Positions 27,512 through 46,911 of a DNA stretch of 64,000 nt are shown piece after piece. Both the position numbers and the translations under genes were made by a program. The stretch is from contig JABIAY010000035.1 of the NCBI GenBank assembly GCA_018653085.1, positions 1 to 64,000 of the forward strand, given 5' to 3'. Origin of the DNA: Nitrospina sp. (GTDB taxonomy: Bacteria; Nitrospinota; Nitrospinia; Nitrospinales; VA-1). Under the pieces are notes generated by a model. That model saw only the letters and a list, made by a program, of their open reading frames with translations. It had not been told where the DNA came from and made no database searches. Numbering within the stretch: the first letter of the stretch is position 1; every line of letters starts with the position of its first letter.

Positions 27512-27520
27512 GAGTCGGGG

Positions 27521-29323: not shown

Positions 29324-30274
29324 TTAAGAAATAACCGTTAATAAAGTTACTGAAATTATTATGGCCAATGCCAACAGGGAAGTTGTGAACATAATTTTAT
29401 GGCTTTGGCTGATGTCGGATAATTCAAGTTCGCGCAAATTGTCCCCAATGAACGGTTTTACATTTATTTTTCCAGAATAAAAACTGGTTCCTCCAAGGCG
29501 TACTCCCAGTGCTCCCGCCATAGCGGCCTCGGGCAATCCTGAATTGGGACTGGGGTGTTTGGAGCCATCTCGCATTGCCATTGCAAGGGAATTTCTGCCA
29601 CTCAGTCCGCAAAGGGCCGCGCTTACAGCAATGACAGGTAAGGCCAGTCTCGCTGGAAACCAGTTTGCCAGATCATCCAGACGGGCAGAAGCCCAACCAA
29701 AATCCCGATAGGTATCGTTTTTATAGCCAAATAATGAATCCATTGTGTTGATGGCCTTAAAAGCAACCGCCAACGGAGCACCTCCAAGCACGGCAAAAAA
29801 TAAAGGGGCGATGATTCCATCTACGGTACTTTCTGCAACCGTTTCCACCGTAGCTCTAACAATTTCCCCCTTTTCAAGGTTGGTAGTGTCGCGCCCGACA
29901 ATATTTGACAAGCTTTCTCTGGCTTTAAAAAGATTGGGTTCCTTGAGATATTGCAATACAGGCCGACTTTCATCAAAGAGGCTTCGCACGGACAAGGTGG
30001 TATAAATAAAAAAACCGGATGCCACCCAGCCCAGCCATGGTTGAACTTGGTCCAATCCTCGAACAATCAGCCATACTGATACAAAAGAGACGGCGACAAC
30101 AGTTATTGTTGTGATTATTCCTGCTAGCCTGAGGTTGGAAAAAGTTTTCCGGGAAAAGGCTTCCACACCGCAAGCCAGACGCGCAATGATTTTTACAGGA
30201 TGGGGAAAACCTTTAGGATCCCCTATTAAAAGATCGGCGATAAAGGCAATGGCGATTTGATAAGTCAAACTCAT
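29324..30274 (-). CDS. cbiB: Adenosylcobinamide-phosphate synthase
   Basis: FIADLLIGDPKGFPHPVKIIARL, ESTVDGIIAPLFFAVLGGAPLAVAFKAINTMDSL. Confidence 0.92.
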   Translation of the reverse strand: MSLTYQIAIAFIADLLIGDPKGFPHPVKIIARLACGVEAFSRKTFSNLRLAGIITTITVVAVSFVSVWLIVRGLDQVQPWLGWVASGFFIYTTLSVRSLFDESRPVLQYLKEPNLFKARESLSNIVGRDTTNLEKGEIVRATVETVAESTVDGIIAPLFFAVLGGAPLAVAFKAINTMDSLFGYKNDTYRDFGWASARLDDLANWFPARLALPVIAVSAALCGLSGRNSLAMAMRDGSKHPSPNSGLPEAAMAGALGVRLGGTSFYSGKINVKPFIGDNLRELELSDISQSHKIMFTTSLLALAIIISVTLLTVIS

Positions 30275-30278
30275 TTTT

Positions 30279-31424
30279 TTAAATCCGGTCCCGGGATGAA
30301 AAATATTCAGTCATCGAATGCAATAACTTTTGGTTGTCTTCTCGCTCCCTCAATGAAATTCGGAAAAAACTTTCATCGAGTCCGCGAAAGTTCCCACAGT
30401 TTCTTATAAGGAGAGACTGCGATAACAAATGCTGATATAAACCTCTGGCAACTTCGGCGCTTTGGTCTCGTGTGCGGATTAAGAAAAAATTGGTTTCAGA
30501 AGGAAAAGTTTCGACTTGCGTTACAGACTTTAAAGTCTCAAGCATAAAACTCCTTTCATGCCTGACCCAGTTCAGGGTTCTCTCCTTAAAGGCACTATCC
30601 AAAATAACTTCCGCCCCTACGGCCTGGGCTAAAGCGTTTACCGACCATGGATATTGGTAGGGGGCTATTTGCCGGATTCTTTCCGGGTGCAGGATGCCGT
30701 ATCCAATTCTAAGCCCGGGAATCGAATAAAACTTGGTCAGGGATCGAACCAGAATCGTGTTTGGACTCCTCGTCAATAAGTTCCACGCGGAATTATCGAC
30801 GGAAGAAAAATCGATGAAAGCCTCATCAATAATTAAAATAATATTTCGGTCCTCGCAGTATTCCTGAAAAGAAGGGAGAAATTCACTATAGAGTTTTCCG
30901 GTGGGACTGGCAGGGTGACCTAAAACAAGGGCTCCAAGTTGCTTGATGGCATCCAGTTTCGGGAATAACAGTGAAGGCTCGATTTGGAAACCATTGTTCG
31001 CCGCCAAGGCAATTGAATGAGGGCGAAAGCCAAATGCCGTGAAAGATTTTTCATATTCGGAGAAACACGGATCCAAGATAGCTACCTCTTGCCCTTCGCG
31101 GAGTAAATGGGGGAGAAGATAAATCAACTCTGTGGAACCGTTTGTCACCCGAATCCAATCCTCAGGAACTCCTGTAGTCTGAGAAATACTTTGCGTAACG
31201 ACTGAGCAATGAGGATCTGGGTATTCCTTTAAGAGCCGTGGTGTTTCCAATAACAATTGAGATACACAGCCGGGCGGGGATAAAGGATTGATGCTGGCAC
31301 TGAAATCAATGAGTGTATCCGGGTCGGTTCCGCAAGTCTTAGCGATGGCCTGCGGATTTCCGCCGTGAGTGGGATAGGGGGTGTCCGCTGATTGCAGATT
31401 TATAGAGGATTTTTTATCAATCAT
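30279..31424 (-). CDS. cobD: Threonine-phosphate decarboxylase-like aminotransferase
   Basis: THGGNPQAIAKTCGTDPDTLIDFSASINPLSPP; PLP Lys in VRSLTKFYSIPGLRIGYG. Confidence 0.9.
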   Translation of the reverse strand: MIDKKSSINLQSADTPYPTHGGNPQAIAKTCGTDPDTLIDFSASINPLSPPGCVSQLLLETPRLLKEYPDPHCSVVTQSISQTTGVPEDWIRVTNGSTELIYLLPHLLREGQEVAILDPCFSEYEKSFTAFGFRPHSIALAANNGFQIEPSLLFPKLDAIKQLGALVLGHPASPTGKLYSEFLPSFQEYCEDRNIILIIDEAFIDFSSVDNSAWNLLTRSPNTILVRSLTKFYSIPGLRIGYGILHPERIRQIAPYQYPWSVNALAQAVGAEVILDSAFKERTLNWVRHERSFMLETLKSVTQVETFPSETNFFLIRTRDQSAEVARGLYQHLLSQSLLIRNCGNFRGLDESFFRISLREREDNQKLLHSMTEYFSSRDRI

Positions 31425-32709
31425 TTTTAGTTGAGTCAGGAAAACGAACCTTAAAGTCAGAGGCTGTTCCCTGCCATTTATTGTAGTAAATTAATTTTTC
31501 AACCGGCAGGCGCTTGCCCCACCCGGCCGTTTCGAGCATGGGTTTGGAATAAAACGCTTCCGTATGACCGATACACAAATAGGCCACGGGCTGAATATGA
31601 TCAGGAATATCCAGGTCCTCCTTTAACTGATCATGTGATAAAATGCTCACCCATCCTACTGCGATCCCTTCTGCCCGGGCCGCCAGCCAGAGATTTTGCA
31701 CTGCGCAACAAGTGCTGAACAGGTCCGTTTCGAAAACCGTGCTTCGCCCTAAAACATTGGGACCAAACCGTGTGCGGTCGCAGGTCACACAAATATTGAC
31801 CGCGGCATCCCGAATTCCTTCCAGTTTGAGGGAATTGTAAAGCTTCTGCCGGTCGCCACTGAATTTTTGCGCCGCATCCTCATTGGCATTTTTAAAGTTC
31901 AATGCGATTTTATTTTTCACTGTGGGGTCAGTGATCACCAGAAAATTCCAGGGTTGCATGTACCCGACTGAACCGGCGTGATGGGCCGCATCCAGAATTC
32001 GGCCTAATTTTTCGGGGTCAATGGGTTTGTTGGTAAAGTGGCGCATATCACGACGTTTGTATATGGCTTCGTAAAGCCCCTGTTTTTTTCCGGGAGAAAA
32101 CTCGTGCTCGGATGTTTTGTCTTCCGACTGTTCCGTGTTATTTGTTTTTGAACAAGTTTTTATGCTCATGGGAATTCCCGATACCATACTAACCACTTCA
32201 TCGAACTCTGCCGCGAGTACCTGGTTGGTTTCACCTGCGATATCGCGAAAGGATCTCGCGGAAGGTTCCATGGGAATAATTCCAGAGCCTAACTCATTGG
32301 TGATGACAATAATATCGCTCGCGCAGTTTTTGCATTCACTGATAAATTCATGGACCCGTTGCAGAATGACTTCCCGTGTCATGTTTTTCATGACCATATT
32401 GCTCAACCATAAAGTCATGCAGTCCAGAACGATAGTCCCAGGCTTACCGCCTCTCTCTCTCAATACGCTTGTTGGGTCAAGCGGCTCCTCAATGGTGGTC
32501 CATTCTTTGCCGCGCTCGTTCTGATGTTTTTCAATTCTTTCCGCCATTTCCTCATCGAGAGGTTCTGCGGTAGCGAGAAATATTTTTTGGCCCTCAATAG
32601 TGCTCGTTAATTGGAGAGCATGACGGCTTTTCCCGCTCCGACTTCCGCCTGTAACTAAAACAGTTTTTCCGGACATAAAATCACCCAATTCCCCGTTAGA
32701 GGGCTCCAT
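31417..32709 (-). CDS. Fusion: adenosylcobinamide kinase/guanylyltransferase (CobU/CobP) + BluB-type DMB synthase
   Basis: N-terminal TVLVTGGSRSGKSRHA...IVLDCMTLWLSNM...VITNELGSGIIP (CobU). C-terminal YEAIYKRRDMRHFTNKPIDPEKLGRILDAAHHAGSVGYMQPWNFLVI...TDLFSTCCAVQNLWLAARAEGIAVGWVSI (BluB). Confidence 0.9.
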   Translation of the reverse strand: MEPSNGELGDFMSGKTVLVTGGSRSGKSRHALQLTSTIEGQKIFLATAEPLDEEMAERIEKHQNERGKEWTTIEEPLDPTSVLRERGGKPGTIVLDCMTLWLSNMVMKNMTREVILQRVHEFISECKNCASDIIVITNELGSGIIPMEPSARSFRDIAGETNQVLAAEFDEVVSMVSGIPMSIKTCSKTNNTEQSEDKTSEHEFSPGKKQGLYEAIYKRRDMRHFTNKPIDPEKLGRILDAAHHAGSVGYMQPWNFLVITDPTVKNKIALNFKNANEDAAQKFSGDRQKLYNSLKLEGIRDAAVNICVTCDRTRFGPNVLGRSTVFETDLFSTCCAVQNLWLAARAEGIAVGWVSILSHDQLKEDLDIPDHIQPVAYLCIGHTEAFYSKPMLETAGWGKRLPVEKLIYYNKWQGTASDFKVRFPDSTKND

Positions 32710-33433
32710 AAAATAGTGAAGTGCCGCCGATTAATAAAAATAAGGTCTCTATAATTTCTGTGGTGGCACCAAGAGTGTCCCCTGTGATGCCTCCAATTTT
32801 ATTTCTAAAATGTAATAGTAAGCCGCTAAGTAATACGGCAAATATCATTAGGCTTGCCAATGCCATTACCCCGTCTATATACAGCAAGGCGGCGAAGGGC
32901 AGGGGACACAATGCTAAAAGATAATATTTCCCCTGCTGGTAAAAAGTTTCTGCCAGAGTTTTTTCGGACGGAACGTGGTTGACAAAAACCAGAGCAATAA
33001 CCAGAGCCGTTCGCGCCAGGGCCGGAGCCATGGCAAGCCAGATTAGAGATTCTGCGCGAATTAGTCCAGCTACCCCCGCCAGTTTCAGGAGCACACAAAA
33101 AAGGATTGCCAGCACTCCCATCACGCCAATGCGTGGGTCTTTCATAATCTCCAGCATTTGTTCCCTGGGCCGGTGCGAGAAAAGTCCGTCTGCTGTATCG
33201 GCCAGACCATCCAAATGTAAAGCCCCGGATATAATGACCATGAACAACACATCCCCTACTATGCGAATTTCCGGGTAGGGTGCCAGGCTCAGTAGTTGGT
33301 CTAGGCCATAAAGCAGGCCTCCGATGAAAAGACCGACCAGAGGAAAATAAAGAACCTGCCTTCCATCGGTGCTGATCGCCGGAGACGGTACCGGGATAAT
33401 GGTTAAAAAACCTATTGCGGATAAAAATTTCAA
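32696..33433 (-). CDS. cobS: Adenosylcobinamide-GDP ribazoletransferase
   Basis: AIGFLTIIPVP, ALHLDGLADTADGLFSHRPREQMLEIMKDPRIGVMGVLA. Confidence 0.92.
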   Translation of the reverse strand: MKFLSAIGFLTIIPVPSPAISTDGRQVLYFPLVGLFIGGLLYGLDQLLSLAPYPEIRIVGDVLFMVIISGALHLDGLADTADGLFSHRPREQMLEIMKDPRIGVMGVLAILFCVLLKLAGVAGLIRAESLIWLAMAPALARTALVIALVFVNHVPSEKTLAETFYQQGKYYLLALCPLPFAALLYIDGVMALASLMIFAVLLSGLLLHFRNKIGGITGDTLGATTEIIETLFLLIGGTSLFYGAL

Positions 33434-33453: not shown

Positions 33454-34038
33454 TTAAAATTCAATACCCTTTTGTGCGGGAATTCCCTGTTCCTTGAAAG
33501 GGTGTTTGATCATCTTCATCTCCGTAACCAGATCGGCTATTTCTATCAATCGGTCAGACGCATTTCTTCCTGTGCAGACAACATGAACCTTTTCAGGTTT
33601 GTTTTTGAGTAATTCCAGAAACTCGTCCTCAGGAAAGAACTGGTAATGCAAAACGTAGTTGATCTCTTCAAATATGACCATTTGATATTTTTCACTCAAT
33701 AATTTCTCTTTGACGATTTCAAAAGCTTTTCGAGCGGTGGCTTTGTCCTGCTCAATATTTTCAGTGTCCCAGGTAAAGCCATCTCCCATAGGGATCACCT
33801 CTACATAAGGAGCCAGTTTTTCAAAAGCCTTACGTTCCCCTGCCTTCCATTGGCCCTTCATGAACTGCATGATGAACACATTCATTTTGTTTCCTGCGGC
33901 ACGCATGGCCAGGCCAAAAGCGGCGGTCGATTTTCCTTTGCCATCGCCTGTATTGACGATGATCAATCCTTTACGTTTTTTTGGGTCTGCCCCTGAAGGT
34001 TTTCTCATGATGTTGGTCTCGTTAGATAATTCAGCCAA
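33454..34038 (-). CDS. cobO: Cob(I)yrinic acid a,c-diamide adenosyltransferase
   Basis: KGLIIVNTGDGKGKSTAAFGLAMRAAGN, FIMQFMKGQWKAGER, FEEINYVLHYQF, VVCTGRNASDRLIEIADLVTEM. Confidence 0.95.
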   Translation of the reverse strand: MAELSNETNIMRKPSGADPKKRKGLIIVNTGDGKGKSTAAFGLAMRAAGNKMNVFIMQFMKGQWKAGERKAFEKLAPYVEVIPMGDGFTWDTENIEQDKATARKAFEIVKEKLLSEKYQMVIFEEINYVLHYQFFPEDEFLELLKNKPEKVHVVCTGRNASDRLIEIADLVTEMKMIKHPFKEQGIPAQKGIEF

Positions 34039-35384
34039 TCCTTATTAGATGCCCAGTAGATATGTGTGTAAAAGGAGTGGCAGTTTTTTATGCGATACCC
34101 GTCCTTTAGAACCACGGGTTTCTTGCTATGACAATCCGTCCACTGCGTTCGTTCCTTATTAACTGTGAAAGTGGAATAGTGGAATTCATGGCCAAAGAGT
34201 ACCGGGTTTTTATTCTTGCTTGAGGTATTGGTCAGTTTTCGGTAACCCAGAGTCAATTTTCTGGCTTTGATGGATGTAGCGAAGTTGAACAGTCCAGCCA
34301 TGGAGAATTTTTTTCCTGTCTCGCTGGTGATATGTTTTCCGAGGTACATGAGCCCACCGCATTCGCCTAGTATCATTTTCCCGGAGGTTCCTGCCTTTTT
34401 GACCTCCTTTAAAAGCGACCGATTTTTGCTCAGGGCTTCAGCGTGTAATTCCGGATAACCGCCAGGGAAATAATACCCATCCATATTGGCTGGCAAATGG
34501 GCATCATGAAGTGGTGAAAAAAAGGAAATATTGAAACCCTGGTGGGACAGAAAATCCAGAGTGTCCTGATAGATGAACTGAAACGCTTCGTCTTTTGCCA
34601 CAGCGATATTGTATGAACCCGATTTTTGTTTTGTCCTCCAGCGTTTTGGTTCCTGTTTCGCAGGAGAAATAGCCCGTGAAGGTTTTTTTAATTTAAAGAG
34701 TTTCAAAAAGGGGCTCAGGTCCATATGGGACTCGATATGCTTGGCCCATTTTTGATAGATGTCATTTTTTTGTTCAAATCCCTGATGCAGTCCAAGATGA
34801 CGGCTGGGTATGCTTAATTCCGGTGATGTCGGCAGGCAGGCGAGAAGTTTTGCCGGAGTGTGGTGTTCAATCGCAGTTTTTATGATGTCCGCATGACGGG
34901 CACTGTTGACGTTGTTAGCAATGACGCCGATCAGGTTCAGTTTTGGGTCGAGCTTCATATATCCCAGGACCAGAGCCGCTGCGGACCGAGCCATGGCTTT
35001 GCCATCGATGACCAGTATAACAGGGAGGTTGAGCAGTTTGGCGATCTGGGCTGTAGATCCCTTTTCAGATTTTGGAGACGCGCCGTCATGCAGGCCCATA
35101 ACCCCCTCAACGATTGCGAGGTCATTCTTACACATAATATCGTTGAATAAATCCTTGACGTATTTTTTACTGCACATGACAGTATCCAGGTTGTAACTTG
35201 GCTGGCTGCACGCCCTTTTGTGATGACTGGGGTCGATATAATCTGGCCCCACCTTGAAGGGTTTGACGGACCATCCCTTATTTTTCAGCAGACGCATGAG
35301 CCCCATAGAAACCGAAGATTTCCCGGCAGAACTATGAGTTCCCGCTACGACCAATCCCTGGTGTTTTTTTAAAGAGTTCGTCAT
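34005..35384 (-). CDS. cbiA: Cobyrinate a,c-diamide synthase
   Basis: GLVVAGTHSSAGKSSVSMGLMRLL, VGPDYIDPSHHKRACSQPSYNLD, GGYPELHAEALSKN, GECGGLMYLG. Confidence 0.93.
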   Translation of the reverse strand: MTNSLKKHQGLVVAGTHSSAGKSSVSMGLMRLLKNKGWSVKPFKVGPDYIDPSHHKRACSQPSYNLDTVMCSKKYVKDLFNDIMCKNDLAIVEGVMGLHDGASPKSEKGSTAQIAKLLNLPVILVIDGKAMARSAAALVLGYMKLDPKLNLIGVIANNVNSARHADIIKTAIEHHTPAKLLACLPTSPELSIPSRHLGLHQGFEQKNDIYQKWAKHIESHMDLSPFLKLFKLKKPSRAISPAKQEPKRWRTKQKSGSYNIAVAKDEAFQFIYQDTLDFLSHQGFNISFFSPLHDAHLPANMDGYYFPGGYPELHAEALSKNRSLLKEVKKAGTSGKMILGECGGLMYLGKHITSETGKKFSMAGLFNFATSIKARKLTLGYRKLTNTSSKNKNPVLFGHEFHYSTFTVNKERTQWTDCHSKKPVVLKDGYRIKNCHSFYTHIYWASNKDWLNYLTRPTS

Positions 35385-35695
35385 TAGGGTTTACTTTTTT
35401 CAATCAAATAAAGTTTTCCTGTTTTGGGGTCTCTAAAAACATTGCCAAGAGATTCATAACCCTCTCCCATACCTTCGATGTTCTTCAGGCCAGGTGGCAT
35501 GTCGGCGAGTTCTTTCCCCCGTTCTATTTTTTTAGCCGTTGTCAGGTGGTCTATCAAGTCCGGACTCAAGGCCGCCAGTGCCGCGATCAGGCCGCAGGCA
35601 AAAACAAGCATGATATCTACAAAATTGGCAAGAGGGCCCAGAGGGTCTTCCTCTTGTTGATCGAATCGACTGCTTCTCCAGGTCGGTGTTTTCAT
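35384..35695 (-). CDS. DUF2149-like protein, ExbD-like single TM with membrane Asp
   Basis: 103 aa; DPLGPLANFVDIMLVFACGLIAALAALS; between exbB-like gene and cbiA. Confidence 0.75.
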   Translation of the reverse strand: MKTPTWRSSRFDQQEEDPLGPLANFVDIMLVFACGLIAALAALSPDLIDHLTTAKKIERGKELADMPPGLKNIEGMGEGYESLGNVFRDPKTGKLYLIEKSKP

Positions 35696-35700
35696 ATATT

Positions 35701-36138
35701 CTAATTTGCGGAACGTAGAGCTTCATCATACCAGCGGCGGCGCAGGCGGCCGAGAATGAAACCGATAATTCCAGCCAGCAGCCCCAGAACTGTCGTGTCG
35801 AAAGCTATGGTTACCGAATCTGTTAATATTGAAAGATCGCCTTGACCCAATCCAGCCAATCCCGGGCCGAGGGGTATTAATGTCCCCATTAAACCGAGCA
35901 TAGGAGACACCCGGGTGAGGATGTCTGTTCGTTCAATCCTTGTCCTGGCAGTGTTTTCAAAAATTTCCCGGTTGTTCTCGTTCAGAGAAATATTTTTAAG
36001 CACCCAAAACCGTTCGCCGATGGCGATTCCCATTTCCCATAAGGCCAGCAAAAGCATTACCCCGAGTCCGATAATAATAGGGTAAAGGAGTGAAGAGACG
36101 AAGTTGTGCATCACGGGCACTGCCCAGTTAGTAGTCAT
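35701..36138 (-). CDS. MotA/TolQ/ExbB-like proton channel protein
   Basis: TRVSPMLGLMGTLIPLGPGLAGLGQGDLSILTDSVTIAFDTTVLGLLAGIIGFILGRLRRRW. Start at 36138 overlaps the cobN-like stop by one base. Confidence 0.85.
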   Translation of the reverse strand: MTTNWAVPVMHNFVSSLLYPIIIGLGVMLLLALWEMGIAIGERFWVLKNISLNENNREIFENTARTRIERTDILTRVSPMLGLMGTLIPLGPGLAGLGQGDLSILTDSVTIAFDTTVLGLLAGIIGFILGRLRRRWYDEALRSAN

Positions 36139-39100
36139 TAATTCTTCTCCCAGGGTTTTTGGCTTCCACGCCGGACTCCTGCCAGGATGAATCCCGCAAT
36201 GGCGCTCCATGCCAGCCATTGATGTTTCATCAAACCATTTTGAATTCCTGCCAGTTCCGACAGGTTTTCCTGTGGATCATTTTCATCGGTTTCATCATAT
36301 TCAACTTCTGCTATTGCGGTCACCATGGAATCTGGGGCTTCTTCCACAATGCGTGCATTGTCCAGAATTGTTTCGAGATTTTTCAATTGCTCGGCGGTAA
36401 GATGTGATGCGATCCAATCATAAATAGGGTGGCCGGGGTGGGTATGCCCACTCCCTGGTAAACCATTTTTGATGATCAGGTCGGCAAAGTTCCGGCTTAA
36501 ATTTTTCAACGTTTCTTCATCTGCTTGCCAAAATCCTTTTTGCGCGGCAACCAGCATGATCGCCAGCATATTGGTTTTCACGTGTGCGTTATGCCCTTTT
36601 TCCAGGAACTCATCGAGCCCAAGTTCATACCGGTCATCCATATAGACCGATTTTACCTCATCCCACATCCAGCTCTTTATAATATCCGGGTTGGTGATTT
36701 GCCAGCCCCAGAGATACTCGAGAAATTCGCTACCTATGGTTCGTGCTCCGGCATAATCGTGCTCCATCAGAGGTTTCAGCCAGGCGGGATTGAGAAACTG
36801 TCCCCTGAGTTCTGCCATAAGGGCTTTATCCAAAGAGGTGAGGGTGGCGTTTTTCGGGTCGGCATGGTGTATCACTTTGGCGGAGGGGGCTTTTCCCGTC
36901 AGGCTTTCTACAGCAAGGCTCAAGCCGCCAAGGTAATCGAAGGCATCATTGTTATCCATCAGTCCGTAAAGGTTGCTGGCTCGTCCCAGATAGGTGTTTT
37001 TAACTTTTGCCAGATTGGCGGTGAAGCGTTTATTCATCCGTTGGCCGCGATAACCCATTCCATAAGCATGTCCCATGCGATTGAGATAAGTCTTGGCAAC
37101 TTCCATTCTGTCCTGCCAGGCTCCGGACCTTTCGGCAAGTTTGTTGACTCCTGCACCATAGGAACCTGGAGCCGCGCCAAAAATACGCAGGCTTGCCTCG
37201 CGCCCCGCCTGACTGCCAGCTACGCCCTGAGAGAGCAACTCCCGAGTTTCCTGAACCCATTGCTGGGCCACCCGGTTTTCTACCAGATTCTCTGTGCCCC
37301 CTGTGGCAAGGTTTTCCAAAGGTGCGAGCGCCGAAGCAAGTGGCATAACCAGCTCAGGGAATTTTTCCCGGATCGTTGTGCTCGCTCCATCCAATGCCAG
37401 AAGAACGGATTTATCCAGCCATTCCAACTGGGCTCCATAAAGATCGCGAAATAATCCTGATGTTACGAAGACCACATCACGTCGCTTGCGGGCATTTTCC
37501 AAAGGAACCCGGCGTACGCCAGTTATTATACCTCGCCCGTTCCATACAGGCTCCAGGCCGAGCATATCGAATCCGAAAGCGATCATGGCACCTTCATCAC
37601 GCACAGCGTCCGAGGCCCAGAGTATGACCGCTTCCTTTTCATCTTTTTCTGCTGGAGTCTCTTTGCGTGCTTTGGCGGCAAGTTCCTTGCCAAGGTTGTA
37701 CCCAAGCCGGGTCGGGAGAAGGCTTCCATCGAGAGCATGAAAGTTTCTCCCAGTGGGCAGAGCCTCAGGAGTGCGGATAGGGTCATTGCCTTTGCCGGGT
37801 TCAACATATCCGCCAGCCAGTGCGTTGAAAAAACTTCGGCGTTCCTCGGCAGGTGAAGACGACAGGTCTGCCAATGCCTTTTTTCGTTTCTGGGTGTCCT
37901 TCTCATCGCCGAGCATGGATTTGAGCATCGTGTCGATGGCTTTTTGTTTCCAGTCGAGACCAAATATATGCAGGCCAAGGGGCATATAGTTTTCCTGCAA
38001 TTGAGTGAGATAATGTCCTGTCTCGTGAACCAACAGCTCATCGTCCACTTCCTCAAAACGAATGCCTCGGACTTTCAATTCGGCGGCCATGCTTGCAGTC
38101 AATTCATCCTTCATATTAAGAGTGTCGATTCGTTCCCGAATTGCTGAAATGGCGCGCACACGTGCCGGGGAACCGGGATCAGGGTCTGCGGCTTCAAAAC
38201 TTTCTACCAATTGTCTCAACCCCAAAAGATCATCATAGAGTTCGGTGGTGCTCAAGGGAGGTGTCAGGTGATCGATCATGACCGCCAATCCGCGTCGTTT
38301 TGCCTGAATGCCTTCACCCACACCATCGACAATATACGGATAGATTCCTGGGGTCTCCCCGGCGATATGCCAGGAGTAGTCCAAAGAACCGACGCCTGTA
38401 CTATGGCGAGGTAAAAATTCGTAGGTGGAATGCCTGCCAACATGAATGATTGCGTCTGCCTTAAAAACGTGGCGTAACCAGAAATAAAATGCCAGATACT
38501 GGTGAGTGGGTGGAAAGGTTGTGTTGGCATGCAAAAGTTCTTCATTGAGTTCCCAGCCTCTTGGCGGTTGGGGGCCCATGAAAATATTTTCAAAACGAAT
38601 GCCCGGGATGAGAATTTGTTCGTCATGAACCATGACTTTTCCCGGTGCGTCGCCCCAGCCGCGGATTGCCTCGATATTTGTTGCGCGAATGGCCTGGCTC
38701 AACGCTTCGGCTTTTCCCCAGTCCCCGTCACCTTTTAAAAGCTTGTGATACTCCTCTTCCAGTTGGTCCAGTAATGAACGTGCCCTGTCCCGGGCTGGAT
38801 GACTGGTCCCCTCCAGAACAAACCTCACATCTCCCATGATTTTTTGTATGAGTCGCTCGGTAAGGAATTTTTCGCCGGTTTGCAATGCGGTTCGCAGATT
38901 TTCATGCAGGAAACCCAGTGGACCTTGTTCCAGTTCTGCACGTAACGTGGTGGGAAGTTGACCCAACCATTGCCGGTATTTATCCGGGGTGACGGTGATT
39001 CCCGATTCGGCCATTTCTTTTAACGCGTCTGCCTGCTCAGGAAGATTGATACCTCTTTCCTGAATGAGGTCCAAAAGGGCTGTCGGGTCTTTCGGCAGGG

Positions 39101-40487
39101 AGCCGGTTGAATAACCTTCGGCATTCATCAGGTTAAGAATGTTCCAAAGGCTTGCGGGAACATCAAGGTTGTCGGCACCGATATTATGCCTTCCCGGAGG
39201 ATGGTTGTAGTAAATGACGGCAACCTTTTTGTCGGAATTATTTTTTGATCGCAGATTGTGCCATCCCGTTACCCGCCGGATCATGCGCTCTACCTGTTCG
39301 GGATGGGGCTCGGTGATGCTGAGACGCAAGCCTGTTTTTTCGTGCATCCAGGCTTTTGCGGCTGTGGCTAAAACCAATGATTGGGAAACGCCCTGAATTT
39401 CCGGCATGGCAACACGGTAATGCACCGAATTCCACGGAAGCCCATCTTCCGATAGACGCCATTGCTCTCGTGACCGATCTGTTAGTCGGATGCCTTTCAA
39501 TACGGGAACATTTAACTGCTTTAAAACCTCTGTTGTTTCCTCGCGCCCCCCTCCACCACCGATGACAAAATCCTGTAGCGAAATAATTCCCGCCAGGGGA
39601 GCCTGTTTCGCAAAACCCAGTAAAGACTTCAGGCCCTGAGTACTACTTTTCCCCCACGCGGAAAGAATGGCAACGCAATCCATTCCCTCACTTTTTGCTG
39701 AGGAACATAAAAGATTTAGCAGGTCGATATTCCCTTTCCTGTCACCTGTGTCATGATCGACAAGTGCAACCCAGGGTCGCCCGGATTTTAAGGCGATTTT
39801 GTTTTTGCTGACAAAAGTACGGTTCTGGTAGAACCGGATCTTGTCCTGCGGTTTCATGGCACCCGGTTGAATGTCCGCGCCTGTGGTTTGAAGGAGCAGG
39901 GCGATCAGGTTTGCCAGGTTTTCCGGTCCGCGGGCATGCCAGTAGCCTTTGAGCTCAAGCCAGAGTTTTTGTTTTGGGAATTCATCAATTAGTTTTCCAA
40001 TCCATTCGTGTGGATTTTCATTCTCACGGGCAGACCTGCCAATGCGCTTCATTTTTTTTCTGTCAAAATCCTGGAAAAGCAGATGCTGGTGATCCTGCGA
40101 GCGTTTAATGAGCGCGAGTGTTGAACTGAGGGCCAGAAAAGTGCGTGAATCTTTTACCTTGTCCATGAGCATTTGCAGGCGAACGGCTGTGTCGCCGAAT
40201 ACACCAACCGCCAGAACCGCATCGGCGGTACTCCATAGAGCAAGGATTTGAGCATCGGTCATGAGTGCTAACTGAGAGGTCGAGCGAAACTCCAGTTTAT
40301 GATCCGCATGACGCTCAAGGAAATAGTCGGCCCCAGCCGCGAGTGCGGTGGAGGACCGGTCCGAGACAACGGCAAAAAGAACCTTCGCCGACACTTGCTC
40401 GGCGGTGCAAGTCAGGAGGATGAGACTCATGCAGAAAAACCGCATCCTCCTGACAATGCTAGTCTTTATGTGGTGCCGTATATCCAT
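36138..40487 (-). CDS. CobN-like (cobaltochelatase/Mg-chelatase large-subunit family) protein with apparent signal peptide and C-terminal TM
   Basis: Family-like blocks YYNHPPGRHNIGADNLDVPASLWNIL, HVGRHSTYEFLPRHSTGVGSLDYSWHIAGETPGIYPYIVDGVGEGIQAKRRGLAVMIDHLTPP. N-terminus MRFFCMSLILLTCTAEQVSA; C-terminus HQWLAWSAIAGFILAGVRRGSQKPWEKN. Confidence 0.88.
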   Translation of the reverse strand: MDIRHHIKTSIVRRMRFFCMSLILLTCTAEQVSAKVLFAVVSDRSSTALAAGADYFLERHADHKLEFRSTSQLALMTDAQILALWSTADAVLAVGVFGDTAVRLQMLMDKVKDSRTFLALSSTLALIKRSQDHQHLLFQDFDRKKMKRIGRSARENENPHEWIGKLIDEFPKQKLWLELKGYWHARGPENLANLIALLLQTTGADIQPGAMKPQDKIRFYQNRTFVSKNKIALKSGRPWVALVDHDTGDRKGNIDLLNLLCSSAKSEGMDCVAILSAWGKSSTQGLKSLLGFAKQAPLAGIISLQDFVIGGGGGREETTEVLKQLNVPVLKGIRLTDRSREQWRLSEDGLPWNSVHYRVAMPEIQGVSQSLVLATAAKAWMHEKTGLRLSITEPHPEQVERMIRRVTGWHNLRSKNNSDKKVAVIYYNHPPGRHNIGADNLDVPASLWNILNLMNAEGYSTGSLPKDPTALLDLIQERGINLPEQADALKEMAESGITVTPDKYRQWLGQLPTTLRAELEQGPLGFLHENLRTALQTGEKFLTERLIQKIMGDVRFVLEGTSHPARDRARSLLDQLEEEYHKLLKGDGDWGKAEALSQAIRATNIEAIRGWGDAPGKVMVHDEQILIPGIRFENIFMGPQPPRGWELNEELLHANTTFPPTHQYLAFYFWLRHVFKADAIIHVGRHSTYEFLPRHSTGVGSLDYSWHIAGETPGIYPYIVDGVGEGIQAKRRGLAVMIDHLTPPLSTTELYDDLLGLRQLVESFEAADPDPGSPARVRAISAIRERIDTLNMKDELTASMAAELKVRGIRFEEVDDELLVHETGHYLTQLQENYMPLGLHIFGLDWKQKAIDTMLKSMLGDEKDTQKRKKALADLSSSPAEERRSFFNALAGGYVEPGKGNDPIRTPEALPTGRNFHALDGSLLPTRLGYNLGKELAAKARKETPAEKDEKEAVILWASDAVRDEGAMIAFGFDMLGLEPVWNGRGIITGVRRVPLENARKRRDVVFVTSGLFRDLYGAQLEWLDKSVLLALDGASTTIREKFPELVMPLASALAPLENLATGGTENLVENRVAQQWVQETRELLSQGVAGSQAGREASLRIFGAAPGSYGAGVNKLAERSGAWQDRMEVAKTYLNRMGHAYGMGYRGQRMNKRFTANLAKVKNTYLGRASNLYGLMDNNDAFDYLGGLSLAVESLTGKAPSAKVIHHADPKNATLTSLDKALMAELRGQFLNPAWLKPLMEHDYAGARTIGSEFLEYLWGWQITNPDIIKSWMWDEVKSVYMDDRYELGLDEFLEKGHNAHVKTNMLAIMLVAAQKGFWQADEETLKNLSRNFADLIIKNGLPGSGHTHPGHPIYDWIASHLTAEQLKNLETILDNARIVEEAPDSMVTAIAEVEYDETDENDPQENLSELAGIQNGLMKHQWLAWSAIAGFILAGVRRGSQKPWEKN

Positions 40488-40488
40488 A

Positions 40489-42327
40489 TTAGTTAAAGGT
40501 ATAGGTGAACCCGCCATAAACGGCGCCATCGGAAGTTCCGCGCCTGGCTATTTCTTCGTATTCTTTATCAAGAATATTTTCACCCCGGGCATTCAGCTCC
40601 AAACTTTTATTGACCTTATACCTCATGGCAATCCGCACTGTGGCAAAACCGGGGACGGTTCTGGAACCGGAACTGTTATCCAAAACACCGCTTCTGGCCC
40701 TTACCCCCAATTGTGTGAAAAATTTGTTTCTCCAGCTATGGGACAATGTGGCCGAATACTGATGTTTCGGGCGGCGCCTCAAAGGAATATCATCGATTTC
40801 ATCCACCGCTTCGGTCCACGTGTAGTTGTTGGAAAGGTACAAATTATGGGGCAGTTGAATTCCCACATGGGCTTCAATACCTCTGGATTTTGCCTTGCCA
40901 ATATTGAGGGTAGGGGTAGAGGAAGTTTGAAATGCAATCAGATCTTCAAACTCGATATTAAAAAAGGCGAGTTCCAGCCGCACTAACTGGTTGAAGAGGT
41001 CCTTGTCCATCCCAATTTCAAAAGATTTCGATTTTTCCGGTTTTAAGTCAGGGTTACCACTTCCTGGAAAAGTAAGATCATTGAAAGTGGGTGCCCGAAA
41101 CCCTGTTGCATAGGCACCACGCAGTCGGAAATCCCATTGCTTGAAATTATAGGATCCTTCAAACTTATATGTCAGGGAATCCTCAAATGTGTCACTTATA
41201 TCTTTTCTGAACCCGGCAGTAAGAAGAACTCTATCCTGCCAATCGAACTGGCTCTGCAAAAAATATCCCTGGTTGAAGGTGTTCTCGGTAAATCCTCTCC
41301 CGCTATTCCTTGCATTTTGTGTGCGGAGCTCAACACCAAATACGGCTGAAATATTCTCATTGATATCGACATTGTTTTGCAGATCGGTAATATAGGTCCT
41401 GTTGAAAATTTGTTGACTTGCTGTATCCACTTCATTGGCATCGTAGGCTATATTGGGGGTTAATTTAATTTTCCACCAAGGGGTGATCGATTTTGAAATT
41501 GGTAAGGCGAGATAAAATGACTCAATTTCAGTGTCGCGGTTCTGGTCCCCGCTTGTGTTATCCACATCCGAATTTGAGCGCGTGTATCGCCCAATAAAAT
41601 CTATTCTTCCATCTTCTGAAAAGCTCGTACCCAGTCGGCTGGTGAGAGAATTGTTTTCATAGCTGTCTTTTTCAGCTCTGCCTCCACTTTCAGCGGTCCT
41701 ATTTTCATTGAAGTCTGAGTAACCGGAAATATCGGTTCGAGATGCTGAGACGGAGTAGTCGATATCGTTAAGAGTTCCAGAGCTTGCCAGGGTTTCTTTG
41801 AATGTCCCGAAATTGCCGGTTTCAAAAGACAGCGTGTGGGTGGGAGTGCCACGGCCCTTCTTGGTAACTATGTTGATCACGCCTCCTACTGCGTCCGCGC
41901 CCCAGACAGGAGTTTGTGAACCTCTTAGAATTTCAATGCGCTCAATATTGTCAGTGGTCAGGCTTCTAAAATCAAAACTTCCGGTTGTGTTTCCATTAGC
42001 CCTCACTCCATCTATAATTACCAATACACTTTTTGCGTCTGCACCTCGCATGCGAATGGTAGACTCCCCTCCTACGCCACCCTGTTTGAAGATGCCGATG
42101 CTCAGTTGGTCTCGCAGAACATCTTCCACCATGGTAGAGCCGGACTGCTTGATTTCCTCTTCCGTGATGATGCTGATGGAACCGGCGTATTTTTTGGCTG
42201 TAGTTTTCAGCCTGCTGGAAGTTATTTCGATGGACTGGAGTTCTTCTGCCGCTTCTTCGGAATATGCGGGTGAGACCGAGATGCAGAGGATGGTGAATGC
42301 TGATAAAAAACGGTTAATCTTTTTCAA
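40489..42327 (-). CDS. btuB: TonB-dependent cobalamin receptor BtuB-like
   Basis: Signal peptide, plug GSTMVEDVLRDQLSIGIFKQGGVGGESTIRMRGADAKSVLVIIDGVRAN, terminal aromatic GGFTYTFN; preceded by cobalamin riboswitch. Confidence 0.9.
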   Translation of the reverse strand: MKKINRFLSAFTILCISVSPAYSEEAAEELQSIEITSSRLKTTAKKYAGSISIITEEEIKQSGSTMVEDVLRDQLSIGIFKQGGVGGESTIRMRGADAKSVLVIIDGVRANGNTTGSFDFRSLTTDNIERIEILRGSQTPVWGADAVGGVINIVTKKGRGTPTHTLSFETGNFGTFKETLASSGTLNDIDYSVSASRTDISGYSDFNENRTAESGGRAEKDSYENNSLTSRLGTSFSEDGRIDFIGRYTRSNSDVDNTSGDQNRDTEIESFYLALPISKSITPWWKIKLTPNIAYDANEVDTASQQIFNRTYITDLQNNVDINENISAVFGVELRTQNARNSGRGFTENTFNQGYFLQSQFDWQDRVLLTAGFRKDISDTFEDSLTYKFEGSYNFKQWDFRLRGAYATGFRAPTFNDLTFPGSGNPDLKPEKSKSFEIGMDKDLFNQLVRLELAFFNIEFEDLIAFQTSSTPTLNIGKAKSRGIEAHVGIQLPHNLYLSNNYTWTEAVDEIDDIPLRRRPKHQYSATLSHSWRNKFFTQLGVRARSGVLDNSSGSRTVPGFATVRIAMRYKVNKSLELNARGENILDKEYEEIARRGTSDGAVYGGFTYTFN

Positions 42328-42346
42328 TTGCTTCTCCCTCGAGATT

Positions 42347-42500
42347 AAAAATCCGGCAGGTCTCCTGACTTCGGGCTATCTACTCACCGCGCCTTCCCAT
42401 CAAAAATGACAGTGGCTGACTGCGGCTTTCGTTCCCTTTACAGTTGCGGGGCAGTGTTGGAATTTCACCAAGCTTCCCTTGACCGGATTTGGGTTGATGA
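42347..42500 (-). promoter_or_regulatory. Cobalamin riboswitch upstream of btuB
   Basis: Minus strand GGTGAAATTCCAACACTGCCCCGCAACTGTAAAGGGAACGAAAGCCGCAGTCAGCCACTG...GGGAAGGCGCGGTGAGTAGATAGCCCGAAGTCAGGAGACCTGCCGG; includes B12-box-like GCCACTG and GAAGTCAGGAGACCTGCC. Confidence 0.95.
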
Positions 42501-42544
42501 CATCTCTGTAAACAGAGATACTATTTAAAATAGTTAACGTGTTA

Positions 42545-44044
42545 TTAAAGCTTCCTTTCAATTGTTTCCATGTCAATGGAGGTCTTAATTAAATCCGCGA
42601 GCCTGTCGAGCTCACGGGTTCTGAACTGTTCATAATCGAAACTGGTTTGCGGTTCAGGCAATCCTTTCTCGCTTCTTATATAGCGTAAAACGTTTTCCCG
42701 AAACAGGTCTTTGTCAAAAAAACCGTGGAGATAAGTGCCGAGAACAGTTCCTGTTTCGTTGATGATTCCAAAGCTCATGGGGTTGTCGCCATTGGAGGCC
42801 GAGAAGAGAGTCGGGTAGGGGGTCCCAAACGCGGTTTGCCCCATATGGATTTCATACCCTTCACACTGAATTCCCTCGGGAAATACACGGCTTTTGACAG
42901 TTTCAAGTTGTATCTGCCGGGTCAGTTTTTCGGCACCAAGCGTGGTTTCAAAATCGAATAATCCTAAACCTTCCACTTTATTTTCCAGACTTTCCAGGTT
43001 TTTAGGATCGTTTATTTTTTTTCCCAGCATTTGGAATCCGCCGCAAATTCCGAGGATCATACTTCCGGTCTGATGGCATTTTAGAATTTCACGGGTCAGG
43101 CATTGCTGGTTCAAAAAAACCATATCGTCAACGGTATTTTTACTGCCGGGGATGATAATCAAGTCAGGACTTCCCATTTGCGCAGGGTGACGAACATATC
43201 GAAGGGAGATAGATGGGTCGTGCGCGAGAGGGGACAAGTCGGTGAAGTTTGAAATCCGAGGGAGTTCGATAACGGCGATATCCAGAATCCCTTGTACATT
43301 TTTCTCCGCCGAATAAAATCTCTGTGGGATGGAATCCTCTTCGTCAATTACCATATCTTTAAAATAGGGGACGACTCCCAAAACGGGCTTGCCCACCATG
43401 TCTTCGAATTGCTCAATGCCCGGTTGCAAAAGTTCAACATCTCCACGGAATTTATTGATGATGAATCCCATTATTCTGTTCTGCTCATTTTTGTTGAGCA
43501 GGTCATAGGTTCCCTTCAACCACGCAAACACTCCTCCCCGGTCGATGTCGCCGACAAGAAGGACCGGTGCATCTGCCTTCTCGGCAATGAACATATTGAC
43601 CAGATCCGTTTTCTTTAAATTGATTTCCGCCGGGCTTCCCGCACCCTCGATGATTATCAGGTCAAACTTGTTTTTCATTTCCTCCAGGGCAGAGAGCACG
43701 ATTTGCTGGTGTTTTTGATACTGTGCGTAATAATTTTTAGCGTTTCGTGTTCCATTTGATTTTCCCATCAAAATGACCTGGGAATTATTATCTCCAGAAG
43801 GTTTTAACAGGATGGGGTTCATGGCGACTTCGGGTTTCAATCCGCAAGCCTCTGCCTGATAGGCCTGGGCTCGCCCCATTTCTTCGCCGCGTTCCGTTAC
43901 GAAAGAGTTTAAGGCCATGTTCTGAGCCTTGAAAGGAGCGACTTTATATCCAGCCTGATAAAAATATCGGCAGAATGCCGCTGTTAAAAGACTTTTCCCG
44001 ACACCGGATCCGGTTCCTTGAATCATTAAGGTCTTTGCTGTCAT
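42545..44044 (-). CDS. cobQ: Cobyric acid synthase
   Basis: LMIQGTGSGVGKSLLTAAFCRYF, FKAQNMALNSFVTERGEEMGRAQAYQAEA, GICGGFQMLGKKI. Confidence 0.95.
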   Translation of the reverse strand: MTAKTLMIQGTGSGVGKSLLTAAFCRYFYQAGYKVAPFKAQNMALNSFVTERGEEMGRAQAYQAEACGLKPEVAMNPILLKPSGDNNSQVILMGKSNGTRNAKNYYAQYQKHQQIVLSALEEMKNKFDLIIIEGAGSPAEINLKKTDLVNMFIAEKADAPVLLVGDIDRGGVFAWLKGTYDLLNKNEQNRIMGFIINKFRGDVELLQPGIEQFEDMVGKPVLGVVPYFKDMVIDEEDSIPQRFYSAEKNVQGILDIAVIELPRISNFTDLSPLAHDPSISLRYVRHPAQMGSPDLIIIPGSKNTVDDMVFLNQQCLTREILKCHQTGSMILGICGGFQMLGKKINDPKNLESLENKVEGLGLFDFETTLGAEKLTRQIQLETVKSRVFPEGIQCEGYEIHMGQTAFGTPYPTLFSASNGDNPMSFGIINETGTVLGTYLHGFFDKDLFRENVLRYIRSEKGLPEPQTSFDYEQFRTRELDRLADLIKTSIDMETIERKL

Positions 44045-44048
44045 AAAT

Positions 44049-45053
44049 TTAAACCTGCCTTTTTCTTTTTAGGAGCCAAACGAAAAAGGGCCCTCCCAAT
44101 ATCGCGGTAATAACACCCACCGGGATTTCTGTCGGCGCGAGAATCGTTCGTGCCAGTGTGTCGCAGGCGACCAGAAAACTAGCACCGAAAAGCATGCATG
44201 TGGGAATCAGTATGCGAAGGTCAGGGCCGACAAACAGCCGGACTGTATGCGGAACGATCAGCCCGACAAATCCAATGGGACCGCAGGTTGCTACCACTGT
44301 TCCGGTGATGAGTGAAGCGATGATGAACCCGATTTTTTGAATCCGGGCAACATTCACTCCCCGACTGGAGGCGGAATGAACCCCGGTGCTGATGAGGTTC
44401 ATATCCCGACTGATAAACAGCAAGCTGAATATTCCCACAAGTACTACCGGAGCAATGGATAAAACCGTTTTGTAATCGGTGATGTCCAACCCTCCCATAA
44501 GCCAGCGGATGATTACAAAAGACTGGCTGAAATCCGCCAGATAATGAATAAACATCACCATTGCCGCGAAGAAAAAATTTGCGGTCACCCCGGCCAGAAG
44601 AAGTACGCCAGTAGGGAATTCCCCGTGACGGGTCCGGACCAGGCTGAAAACCAGGATAATGGCACCGAGCGAACCTAAAAAGGCAAACAGGGGAACCACC
44701 GGAATCCCTAACATGTAAATATGCAAATTCAAGGCAATGGCAATCACCGCTCCCAACGCCGCGCCGCTGGAGACACCCAATGTGAAGGGAGCCGCCAAAT
44801 CGTTTCTCAGCAAAGCCTGAAAAATGGCCCCTGCTACTGACAAGGCGGCACCGGCTAAAGCACCGAGAAGGATTCTTGGAAACCGAACTTGAAAGAGGAT
44901 GATGGCATCCGGATTGCTGGAGATATTTATGCTGTCAGAAAATGCCCGAGCCAAACTGATTTTGCTGGAACCGATGAGCGGTGCAACGCAAAGGGTAACG
45001 ATGAATAATAAAAAAAATAGTGAAAGGGTCATTGTATAAGATCTTGAATTCAT
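44049..45053 (-). CDS. btuC: Vitamin B12 ABC transporter permease (FecCD family)
   Basis: RFPRILLGALAGAALSVAGAIFQALLRNDLAAPFTLGVSSGAALGA, CGPIGFVGLIVPHTVRLFVG. Confidence 0.9.
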   Translation of the reverse strand: MNSRSYTMTLSLFFLLFIVTLCVAPLIGSSKISLARAFSDSINISSNPDAIILFQVRFPRILLGALAGAALSVAGAIFQALLRNDLAAPFTLGVSSGAALGAVIAIALNLHIYMLGIPVVPLFAFLGSLGAIILVFSLVRTRHGEFPTGVLLLAGVTANFFFAAMVMFIHYLADFSQSFVIIRWLMGGLDITDYKTVLSIAPVVLVGIFSLLFISRDMNLISTGVHSASSRGVNVARIQKIGFIIASLITGTVVATCGPIGFVGLIVPHTVRLFVGPDLRILIPTCMLFGASFLVACDTLARTILAPTEIPVGVITAILGGPFFVWLLKRKRQV

Positions 45054-45069
45054 GTCAGGATGCCTGAGA

Positions 45070-45852
45070 TCAACGGCTGATAACCGGATGGACTCGGATG
45101 CTTCCATCGTGAGAACCCAGGTCGACTTCTATGCCGTATACCTGCTCAAGAATATCTTTTTTAAGTACCTGTTCGGGAGTTCCGTCACGCACAATTTGAC
45201 CTTCATCTAAAAGTATAAGGCGGTTGCAGAAACTGGAAGCAAGGTTCAAGTCGTGCATGGCCATAACCAGAGTCATTTTATGTCTGGCGTTGAGGTTTTT
45301 TAAAATACTCAGAATTTGGATTTGATATTTTAAATCCAGTGCGGCTGTGGGTTCATCCAGAAGCATCATTTCCGGATCTTGCGCCAGGGCACTGGCGATC
45401 ATGACCCTCTGTTTTTCCCCTCCGCTGATTTCATTGAAGTACCTGTCGGCAAACTGGGAGGTCATTGTGGTTTCCATGGCGCGCTGGCTTATTTCAAAAT
45501 CTTCCTCGCTTTCAAATGATAAGGGAGAAAGATAAGGATGCCGTCCCATCAATACAATCTCAGAAACCTTGAAAGGAAAAACCATAGGGTGGTCCTGGGG
45601 AATCCATGAAACAGACTGGGCGAAAAGTTTTTTATTAATTTTAGGTAAAGAGGATTCTTTGAACTGGATAGAACCTGAATCCGGTTTTAGTATCGCTCCC
45701 ATAATTTTTAGAAGAGTGGATTTCCCCGACCCGTTAGGGCCGATCAATCCTATAAAATCCTGTTCCCGGGTGGATAGGGATATATCCTTCAAGACCGGTA
45801 AGGTTTCATAGGCGAATGAGATATTTTCCAACTTCATCAATGCCGGGGTCAT
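45070..45852 (-). CDS. btuD: Vitamin B12 ABC transporter ATP-binding protein
   Basis: Walker A GPNGSGKST; signature ISGGEKQRVMIASALAQDPEMMLLDEPTAALD. Confidence 0.9.
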   Translation of the reverse strand: MTPALMKLENISFAYETLPVLKDISLSTREQDFIGLIGPNGSGKSTLLKIMGAILKPDSGSIQFKESSLPKINKKLFAQSVSWIPQDHPMVFPFKVSEIVLMGRHPYLSPLSFESEEDFEISQRAMETTMTSQFADRYFNEISGGEKQRVMIASALAQDPEMMLLDEPTAALDLKYQIQILSILKNLNARHKMTLVMAMHDLNLASSFCNRLILLDEGQIVRDGTPEQVLKKDILEQVYGIEVDLGSHDGSIRVHPVISR

Positions 45853-46856
45853 GGGTTTGAGATCGTCTTTTTTGTTGCGTCTGCGAATAAATCCGGGTGT
45901 ATGGCTTTGGAAAAGCGCTCAATAATTTTCAAAAGCCTGGGACCCGGTATCAAAATATAATCAGCACCGATAAAATGAATTTGTTTGTTCTTAACAGCTT
46001 TTATCGTGGGGAAGCGACTCCACTCCTGAATTCTGAGGTCAATTTCTTCCTGCGACAGGTTTGATCTGGGGCCTGCTTCTATAATGATCTCCGGTGATTT
46101 TTCAATGATATATTCTTTAGATAACTTGGGGTACCGGGCGGGAGAGCTCCGTACGATGTTGTTGCCTCCGGCGATATTGAGCAGTTCATTTAAAAATGTG
46201 CCGGGTCCTGCGGCATATAAATCCCGGGAGGGATCACTGCTATCTCCCAAGAGCAATAACACCTCTTTTTTAGGTAGATGCCGTTCCTTATAAAAGGCGA
46301 TTCCTTTATTCAAACTCCCGAGTAGTTTATCTGCGGATTCCTGACAATTTAAGGCCGTGCCAAGTTTTTCGATGGATGCAAAAATTTCTGCCAAATTTCC
46401 CATGTCCATCGTGAGGGTCTGGATGCCCAGACTTTTCGCGTTGCTGGCGATTCTCTGGTTGCCGGATGGATGGATGATCAAGTCAGGGTTCAAGGACACC
46501 ACCGTTTCCATGCTGGGATTGATCATGCCGCCAATGCTCGGGAGCTGGCAGGCTGTATCGGGGTACTTGCAATAATCGGTTACGGCAATGACCCGATCTG
46601 CTAATCCCAGTTCGAATAGGGTTTCGGTGATAGAAGGGGAGGTGGAAATGATACGCCTTGCAGACTGGCTATCGTTTGCCCAAAGAGGAGACAATGAGAG
46701 AAGGCAAAGCAACACCGCTGATACAACAGCAGTACCCGCTTTGGATAATGCGTGAGTTATCTGTTTGGTGGCTTGAAAACTATTACTTGGGGAAAAAAGA
46801 AATCTAAATGGAAAAAAAATCACCGGAATATCCTCGTTCCAGCGAAATGAGGGCAA
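45849..46856 (-). CDS. btuF: Vitamin B12 ABC transporter substrate-binding protein
   Basis: RRIISTSPSITETLFELGLADRVIAVTDYCKYPDTACQLPSIGGMINPSMETVVSLNPDLII; true start may be internal. Confidence 0.88.
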   Translation of the reverse strand: MPSFRWNEDIPVIFFPFRFLFSPSNSFQATKQITHALSKAGTAVVSAVLLCLLSLSPLWANDSQSARRIISTSPSITETLFELGLADRVIAVTDYCKYPDTACQLPSIGGMINPSMETVVSLNPDLIIHPSGNQRIASNAKSLGIQTLTMDMGNLAEIFASIEKLGTALNCQESADKLLGSLNKGIAFYKERHLPKKEVLLLLGDSSDPSRDLYAAGPGTFLNELLNIAGGNNIVRSSPARYPKLSKEYIIEKSPEIIIEAGPRSNLSQEEIDLRIQEWSRFPTIKAVKNKQIHFIGADYILIPGPRLLKIIERFSKAIHPDLFADATKKTISNP

Positions 46857-46911
46857 AGCATGAAGATTAAATGTCCTTAGCTTAACTCACCTCAGGCCGC
46901 GAAGGTTTAGT

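Follow-up and report, generated by a model that had tools for sequence, protein, structure and literature searches.

What does a protein annotated as the cobaltochelatase subunit CobN do in a bacterium in which no corrin-ring synthesis is found? The question is raised by a 64,000-nucleotide stretch of contig JABIAY010000035.1 of Nitrospina sp. (assembly GCA_018653085.1; hereafter the window), where a cobalamin riboswitch on the minus strand is followed by genes for a BtuB-like receptor, an exported CobN-like protein, an ExbB-like protein, a DUF2149 protein and CbiA. On balance we think that the CobN-like, ExbB-like and DUF2149 proteins (the trio) form a three-part machine for corrinoid salvage that is driven by the proton motive force (pmf), with a class I chelatase-like protein in the periplasm. 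The trio probably acts on B12-like molecules that the cell has scavenged, at a site outside the inner membrane; many marine and environmental bacteria that are unable to make vitamin B12 have it. The CobN-like/ExbB/DUF2149 module is already known, and the part that appears to be new is the clade under B12 riboswitch control, here called B12-type. The predicted export and anchoring of its CobN-like protein, the conservation of the trio, the riboswitch control, the lack of ring synthesis and of an AAA+ partner and the membership of a single clade can all be read from the genomes.

An exported CobN-like clade in corrinoid salvagers

The topology of the CobN-like proteins was called from hydropathy only. 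By this measure, the B12-type proteins carry a hydrophobic signal at the N terminus and, at the C terminus, a membrane helix that is followed by positive residues. The start of the window gene is ambiguous (M1, M15 or M29), and under every choice the signal peptide ends at VSA48; orthologues keep A48 and a cleavage site of the form [VA]xA. The C-terminal helix occurs in the complete B12-type proteins that have ExbB/DUF2149 and is weakest in the Nitrospinota members. In a maximum-likelihood tree of the CobN family (quick search, with Shimodaira-Hasegawa-like approximate likelihood ratio test [SH-aLRT] support), the exported CobN-like proteins form one group (SH-aLRT 99), the B12-type proteins form a clade (100) and cytosolic CobN is separate (100). 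In this tree the B12-type is thus a single clade, distinct from both the cytosolic cobaltochelatase and the heme de-chelatase HmuS.

The closest solved structure is HmuS (9d26). Its catalytic His-538 corresponds to H700 of the window protein, which is common to the whole CobN/HmuS/ChlH superfamily, with the neighbours R699 and S701 being specific to the B12-type; E739 (HmuS Glu-577) and a KRR motif are also invariant. By contrast, the HmuS motif LSLDHxxEFMGG, which holds His-1209 and Glu-1212, is not matched: B12-type proteins read MDNNDAFDYLGG, and the His-1209 position is Asp in 77/77 of them, as in cytosolic CobN (D1195). The Met-rich insertion of HmuS (domain IV) was absent from the two B12-type proteins examined for it, those of the window and of locus L045. 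The clade has 68 invariant positions of its own, among them an HExGH motif that could bind metal. Its H835 and H839 occur in 77/77 B12-type proteins, and HExGH was not seen at that site in other CobN, HmuS or ChlH proteins. An insertion of about 75 amino acids (aa) is found in B12-type proteins, including those of Marinobacter, and not in other CobN-family groups.

The window's genome is a metagenome-assembled genome (MAG) of 3.16 Mb and 95% completeness, and gene absences in it rest on family searches. The original prediction suggested that its CobN-like protein may not be a cytosolic cobaltochelatase working with ChlI/ChlD or CobS/CobT encoded elsewhere. The genome agrees with this. The protein, the only CobN-family member, is predicted to be exported and anchored; neither CbiC nor the AAA+ cobaltochelatase subunit CobS was found, and the search for ChlI/D-type subunits gave generic AAA/VWA matches that reached 36 bits at best, where the Cob-chelat-sub cut-off is 779. 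Among 77 Nitrospinota genomes, all nine with a cytosolic CobN of about 1235 aa have CbiC, which is absent from all four that carry the exported form (Fisher p 0.0014, a value that ignores relatedness and MAG incompleteness).

We also examined 50 genomes with the B12-type unit, 44 with the motor pair (ExbB-like plus DUF2149) and six from Marinobacter. CbiC is missing in 46 of them, the exceptions being Zhongshania (2), Spongiibacter and Thioalkalivibrio. Most carry no other CobN-family protein; of nine second copies viewed, seven lie beside ExbB/DUF2149 genes, and of the other two one is BchH-like and the other lacks an ExbB/DUF2149 match. CbiA occurs in 41/50. Gene order had suggested a strict CbiA-CobN partnership, which is ruled out by the absence of CbiA from the other nine. 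The CobS of nucleotide-loop assembly is present in 29 of the 30 genomes tested, including all nine that lack CbiA, so that salvage could proceed as far as a finished cobamide. In the window, the operon and a second riboswitch operon together encode the steps that lead from cobyrinic or hydrogenobyrinic acid to cobalamin, and none of ring synthesis. These data indicate that carriers of the B12-type unit are corrinoid salvagers.

Conservation of the trio and the motor pair

A genome scan gave 80 loci from Nitrospinota, Nitrospirales, many Gammaproteobacteria, Campylobacterales and Myxococcota. Every complete locus outside Marinobacter (62/62) has cobN, exbB and DUF2149 in this order, and the median gaps are +1 and -4 nucleotides (nt); the remaining 18 loci comprise 15 from Marinobacter and three cut by contig ends. 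An order kept so consistently is more than chance: the system is conserved and no accident of one locus. The original prediction had made conservation in other genomes a test of its proposal, and the trio is indeed kept across many phyla. An Rfam scan (RF00174) of 42 loci found a same-strand cobalamin riboswitch upstream in 34, at a distance from cobN of up to 700 nt in 23 and further away in 11; none was found in the other eight, some of which lie close to contig ends. In Methylophaga, Zhongshania, Pseudomonas, Poseidonibacter, Marinobacterium and Neomelitea, the riboswitch heads the trio alone, amid unrelated genes. No HmuY or HmuT-like gene was present in the trio units examined and no metal permease gene accompanies the B12-type unit.

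The ExbB-like proteins have conserved PMLGLMGTLIPLGPGL and FDTT motifs, and the Thr motifs of the channel helices (GLMGT and FDTT) are kept. An AlphaFold 2 model of the window protein (predicted local distance difference test score 86) has ExbB, TolQ and MotA as its nearest folds, with an E value of only 0.016. The DUF2149 protein scores slightly below the PF09919 cut-off of 27.1 bits, and about 60 homologues at the same position back the call. It has one transmembrane (TM) helix with an invariant Asp27 in FVDIMLVF, where an ExbD of the same genome reads FVDVMLVL, and the Asp motif occurs in 62/62 DUF2149 proteins. A comparison with ExbD profiles gave a weak match (hhalign, 11 columns, P 0.044), and a fold search with a low-confidence model matched nothing. 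DUF2149 as a proven ExbD homologue was rejected, because beyond the Asp motif it has no significant profile or fold support.

Marinobacter links this pair to the membrane helix of the CobN-like protein. By hydropathy, 16/16 Marinobacter CobN-like proteins have the signal and lack the C-terminal helix. DUF2149 of this kind was found nowhere in 13/13 Marinobacter genomes and was present in three positive controls. Marinobacter has lost the C-terminal helix, ExbB and DUF2149 together, and no other evidence speaks as strongly for the helix acting jointly with the pair. From the presence of the pair and this joint loss, pmf coupling appears likely.

A proposed proton-driven machine and its rivals

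Class I chelatases depend on an ATP-driven AAA+ motor (PMC7689651). The periplasm contains no ATP, so that a proton channel would be a reasonable substitute motor there. In the mechanism that we propose, BtuB-type receptors would carry scavenged corrinoid to the periplasm, where the CobN-like protein, exported by its signal and anchored by its C-terminal helix, would bind it in its central cavity, which is conserved (H700/E739, D1195). The proton channel of the ExbB-like and DUF2149 proteins would drive the conformational cycle of the CobN-like protein in place of AAA+ motors such as CobST and ChlID. The processed corrinoid would then be imported via BtuFCD and finished by CbiA, CobO, CbiP, CbiB, CobU, CobS and CobT. 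Coupling, substrate and reaction are what we infer from the genes. Of the pmf-driven periplasmic machine put forward in the original prediction, export and anchoring are thus supported and pmf coupling is likely, with the reaction itself remaining conjectural.

Our first guess at the reaction, a tentative one, would be that cobalt is inserted into corrins that are metal-free or incomplete. Since the B12-type unit has no metal permease beside it, the removal of metal seems less likely. A membrane-transporter-like gene occurs in the heme (HmuT), T. lovleyi (DUF2162) and Runella hydrogenase (NicO/UreH-like) versions of the module and not in the B12-type, and this argues against a product in the form of free metal. 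In its fullest form the insertion idea is rather unlikely: ring-less bacteria would scavenge corrins without metal or otherwise incomplete, hydrogenobyrinic acid for example, and a pmf-driven cobaltochelatase in the periplasm would supply the cobalt before the product is imported and finished via CbiA-CobO-CbiP-CbiB-CobU-CobS.

Several points weigh against the proton-driven salvage machine. Marinobacter retains the CobN-like protein without the pair, so a motor is not always needed, and HmuS, once purified, is active in vitro with its ExbB/DUF2149 partners absent (PMC12583661). DUF2149 looks ExbD-like by its TM motif only, the profile and fold comparisons being without significant support. Cobyrinate-level salvage is not universal, since CbiA is missing in nine genomes, and cobalt insertion presupposes a natural supply of metal-free corrins. 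A strong homologue of the AAA+ cobaltochelatase subunit CobS occurs in 5/47 genomes with the exported type. The five genomes with the strong homologue (G084, G089, G091, G093 and G125) have the exported type as their sole CobN. In a Caulobacter control, such a homologue is present without CobN.

The main rival is a hand-off of corrinoid without metal chemistry, in which the CobN-like protein binds corrinoid while pmf pulls it off BtuB or loads BtuF, or changes its axial ligands or base-on/base-off state. We regard this as unlikely, though it deserves to be taken seriously: B12 control, the salvage context and the lack of a metal permease all suit it, and PepSY_TM reductase-like genes near the trio in nine loci fit a redox or ligand step. 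However, the invariant chelatase residues (H700, E739 and the KRR motif) exceed the needs of a binding protein, and Marinobacter has the protein without the motor. The structural kinship with HmuS and the architecture shared with hmu operons would instead suit an HmuS-like de-chelatase that strips cobalt or another metal from periplasmic tetrapyrroles. This is improbable. Cobalt in corrins is very inert, the 46 genomes without ring synthesis could not use free cobalt for it, no permease gene adjoins the unit, HmuS His-1209 and the Met-rich insertion are missing, and control is by a cobalamin riboswitch, not a metal regulator.

Because btuB and tonB share the operon, the ExbB-like and DUF2149 proteins might merely energise TonB for the adjoining BtuB, with CobN an unrelated passenger. 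We consider this slightly less probable again. As an energiser for BtuB the pair is ruled out by trios that occur without btuB or tonB and by the four ordinary ExbD genes elsewhere in the window's genome; in Marinobacter the pair vanishes with the membrane helix of CobN, not with BtuB. Annotation by homology would make the protein a cytosolic-type cobaltochelatase of de novo B12 synthesis that was misread as exported. This is hardly credible and is ruled out by the signal peptide and C-terminal helix, the separate clade and the absence of CbiC and of an AAA+ partner.

If the proton-driven salvage machine is real, it would give class I chelatases a new energy source and add a new salvage route to B12. 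The coupling, if right, would be a new way of powering a chelatase and would explain the role of ExbB/DUF2149 in the heme and zinc versions of the module as well as in the B12 version. When a ring-less genome holds an orphan "cobaltochelatase CobN", this is easily misread as B12 production, and the present results point to a large coherent class of these orphan genes as an exported salvage component. As a three-gene riboswitch-controlled unit, the trio is easy to delete and test.

Relatives of the module and neighbouring genes

The original prediction put the whole system forward as a candidate undescribed one, which does not hold for the module. It has been published as HmuS and its partners in the hmu operon of Bacteroidota (PMC12583661, PMC10434189, PMC13227078) and as the Zur-controlled PA1922-PA1925 of Pseudomonas aeruginosa (PMC4542158). 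Like the B12-type, the HmuS system (with HmuT/HmuU/HmuV) has an exported, membrane-anchored CobN-family protein beside a TonB receptor, MotA/TolQ/ExbB and DUF2149. The hmu system differs in its heme substrate, iron control and six-gene operon with HmuY and HmuT, and HmuS in its Met-79/His-254 heme site, its His-1209 and its Met-rich insertion, whereas the B12-type has its own insertion, the HExGH motif and a cobalamin riboswitch, and no permease. TonB receptor-ExbB-DUF2149-CobN paralogues akin to PA1922-PA1925 differ from the B12-type in gene order and clade. Plasmid pSZ77 of T. lovleyi carries TonB receptors, ExbB, DUF2149 and CobN near cobalamin genes, and its authors noted that CobS/CobT are absent (PMC3403914); its cobN cluster differs from the B12-type in belonging to a separate clade and in having a DUF2162 predicted transporter and its own exbB-exbD-tonB. 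CobNST and ChlHID share the large-subunit family, the catalytic His and Glu and, in CobN, the Asp at 1195, but they are cytosolic, use ATP via AAA+ partners in de novo synthesis and have no ExbB/DUF2149.

PMC6460266 cites BtuS as a third kind of CobN-related protein, proposed in 2003 (Rodionov) and predicted to serve metalloporphyrin salvage; there, BtuS1/BtuS2 of B. fragilis are heme-related and the studied members are predicted to be periplasmic. Some B12-type members may already be counted within this family. In the open-licence literature we found no description of the riboswitch-led trio, and no paper joining PepSY with a cobalamin riboswitch or a CobN-like protein with btuB and a riboswitch. 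Runella plasmid pRUNSL01 (L043 1110-9144) has a TonB receptor, a NicO/UreH-like permease (a sub-threshold match), ExbB, DUF2149 and a CobN-like protein within a cluster for hydrogenase maturation (hyp), and this may be a nickel version of the module.

In the window, the parts named in the original prediction, from riboswitch to cbiA, were all recovered in place by Rfam, Pfam and NCBIfam matches (Table 1), and the operon reaches further than it had proposed, to about 26018. The predicted one-base overlap of the cobN stop and exbB start can be read directly (TAATG), and a single base is likewise shared by DUF2149 and cbiA. The open reading frame (ORF) of the ExbB-like protein was listed from 36219, but the conserved start is M28 at 36138. 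The receptor is named only BtuB-like because its score with TIGR01779, the B12 receptor and best NCBIfam model, is under the 600-bit cut-off. The L044 orthologue of the window's cobS coincides with a PF02654 CobS match in that genome (G077:C114:8950-9636).

Table 1. Features of the cobalamin operons in the window.
Feature	Position	Strand	Basis
Cobalamin riboswitch heading btuB-cobN-exbB-DUF2149-cbiA operon	42338..42502	-	Rfam RF00174, 101.9 bits, E 2.4e-24
btuB-like TonB-dependent receptor	40489..42327	-	PF00593/PF07715; TIGR01779 275 bits
Exported CobN-like, B12-type clade, 1463 aa ORF	36138..40529	-	PF02514 825 bits
Predicted signal peptide h-region and cleavage site (MRFFCMSLILLTCTAEQVSA48/K)	40386..40445	-	Hydropathy; A48 conserved
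B12-type-specific insertion (~75 aa) ahead of H700-bearing domain	38694..38924	-	Alignment
Catalytic histidine H700 (HmuS His-538) in HVGRHS motif	38430..38432	-	Invariant, all groups
HExGH motif H835-H839	38013..38027	-	B12-type specific
Predicted C-terminal TM helix of CobN-like, then RRGSQK (cytoplasmic side)	36174..36221	-	Hydropathy
ExbB/TolQ/MotA-like proton channel subunit, 145 aa	35701..36138	-	PF01618 31.9 bits, above cut-off
DUF2149, single TM helix	35384..35695	-	PF09919 25.7 bits
cbiA/cobB, (hydrogeno/co)byrinic acid a,c-diamide synthase	34005..35384	-	NF002204 473 bits
cobO/btuR adenosyltransferase	33454..34038	-	PF02572, NF004637
cobS (cobalamin synthase)	32696..33433	-	Orthologue in locus L044
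cobU-bluB fusion	31417..32709	-	NF004469 and TIGR02476, both above cut-off
cobD-like threonine-phosphate decarboxylase	30279..31424	-	TIGR01140 289 bits, at cut-off
cbiB	29324..30274	-	TIGR00380
tonB-like	28258..29319	-	TIGR01352, PF03544
c-type cytochrome, possible periplasmic electron carrier (putative functional link)	27110..27511	-	PF13442
cobT (dimethylbenzimidazole phosphoribosyltransferase)	26018..27082	-	TIGR03160 474 bits
cbiP/cobQ, btuC, btuD, btuF behind second riboswitch (46908-47074)	42545..46856	-	

The CobU and BluB domains are joined in a single ORF of 430 aa. Between cbiB and cobT, inside the cobalamin operon (27110-29319, minus strand), lie tonB, a gene for an Lsa25.6-family/EF-hand protein and the c-type cytochrome gene. 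Past cobT, a 302 aa ORF (25110-26018, minus strand) matches no family.

PepSY_TM proteins are encoded at L091 8319-9896, L097 8298-9815, L045 17459-18904 and in six more loci. In Parahaliea and Halioglobus the gene lies directly between the riboswitch and the cobN-like gene, and its product is a candidate periplasmic corrinoid reductase. Together with the cytochrome c of the window operon, these genes hint at a redox step. In Methylohalomonas (L072 14804-15475), whose genome has no CbiC, a tetrapyrrole methylase-family gene separates exbB and DUF2149. In Colwellia (L071 7756-8373), a membrane protein of 205 aa without annotation or Pfam/NCBIfam match is encoded between the riboswitch and cbiA, and it may be a corrinoid transporter.

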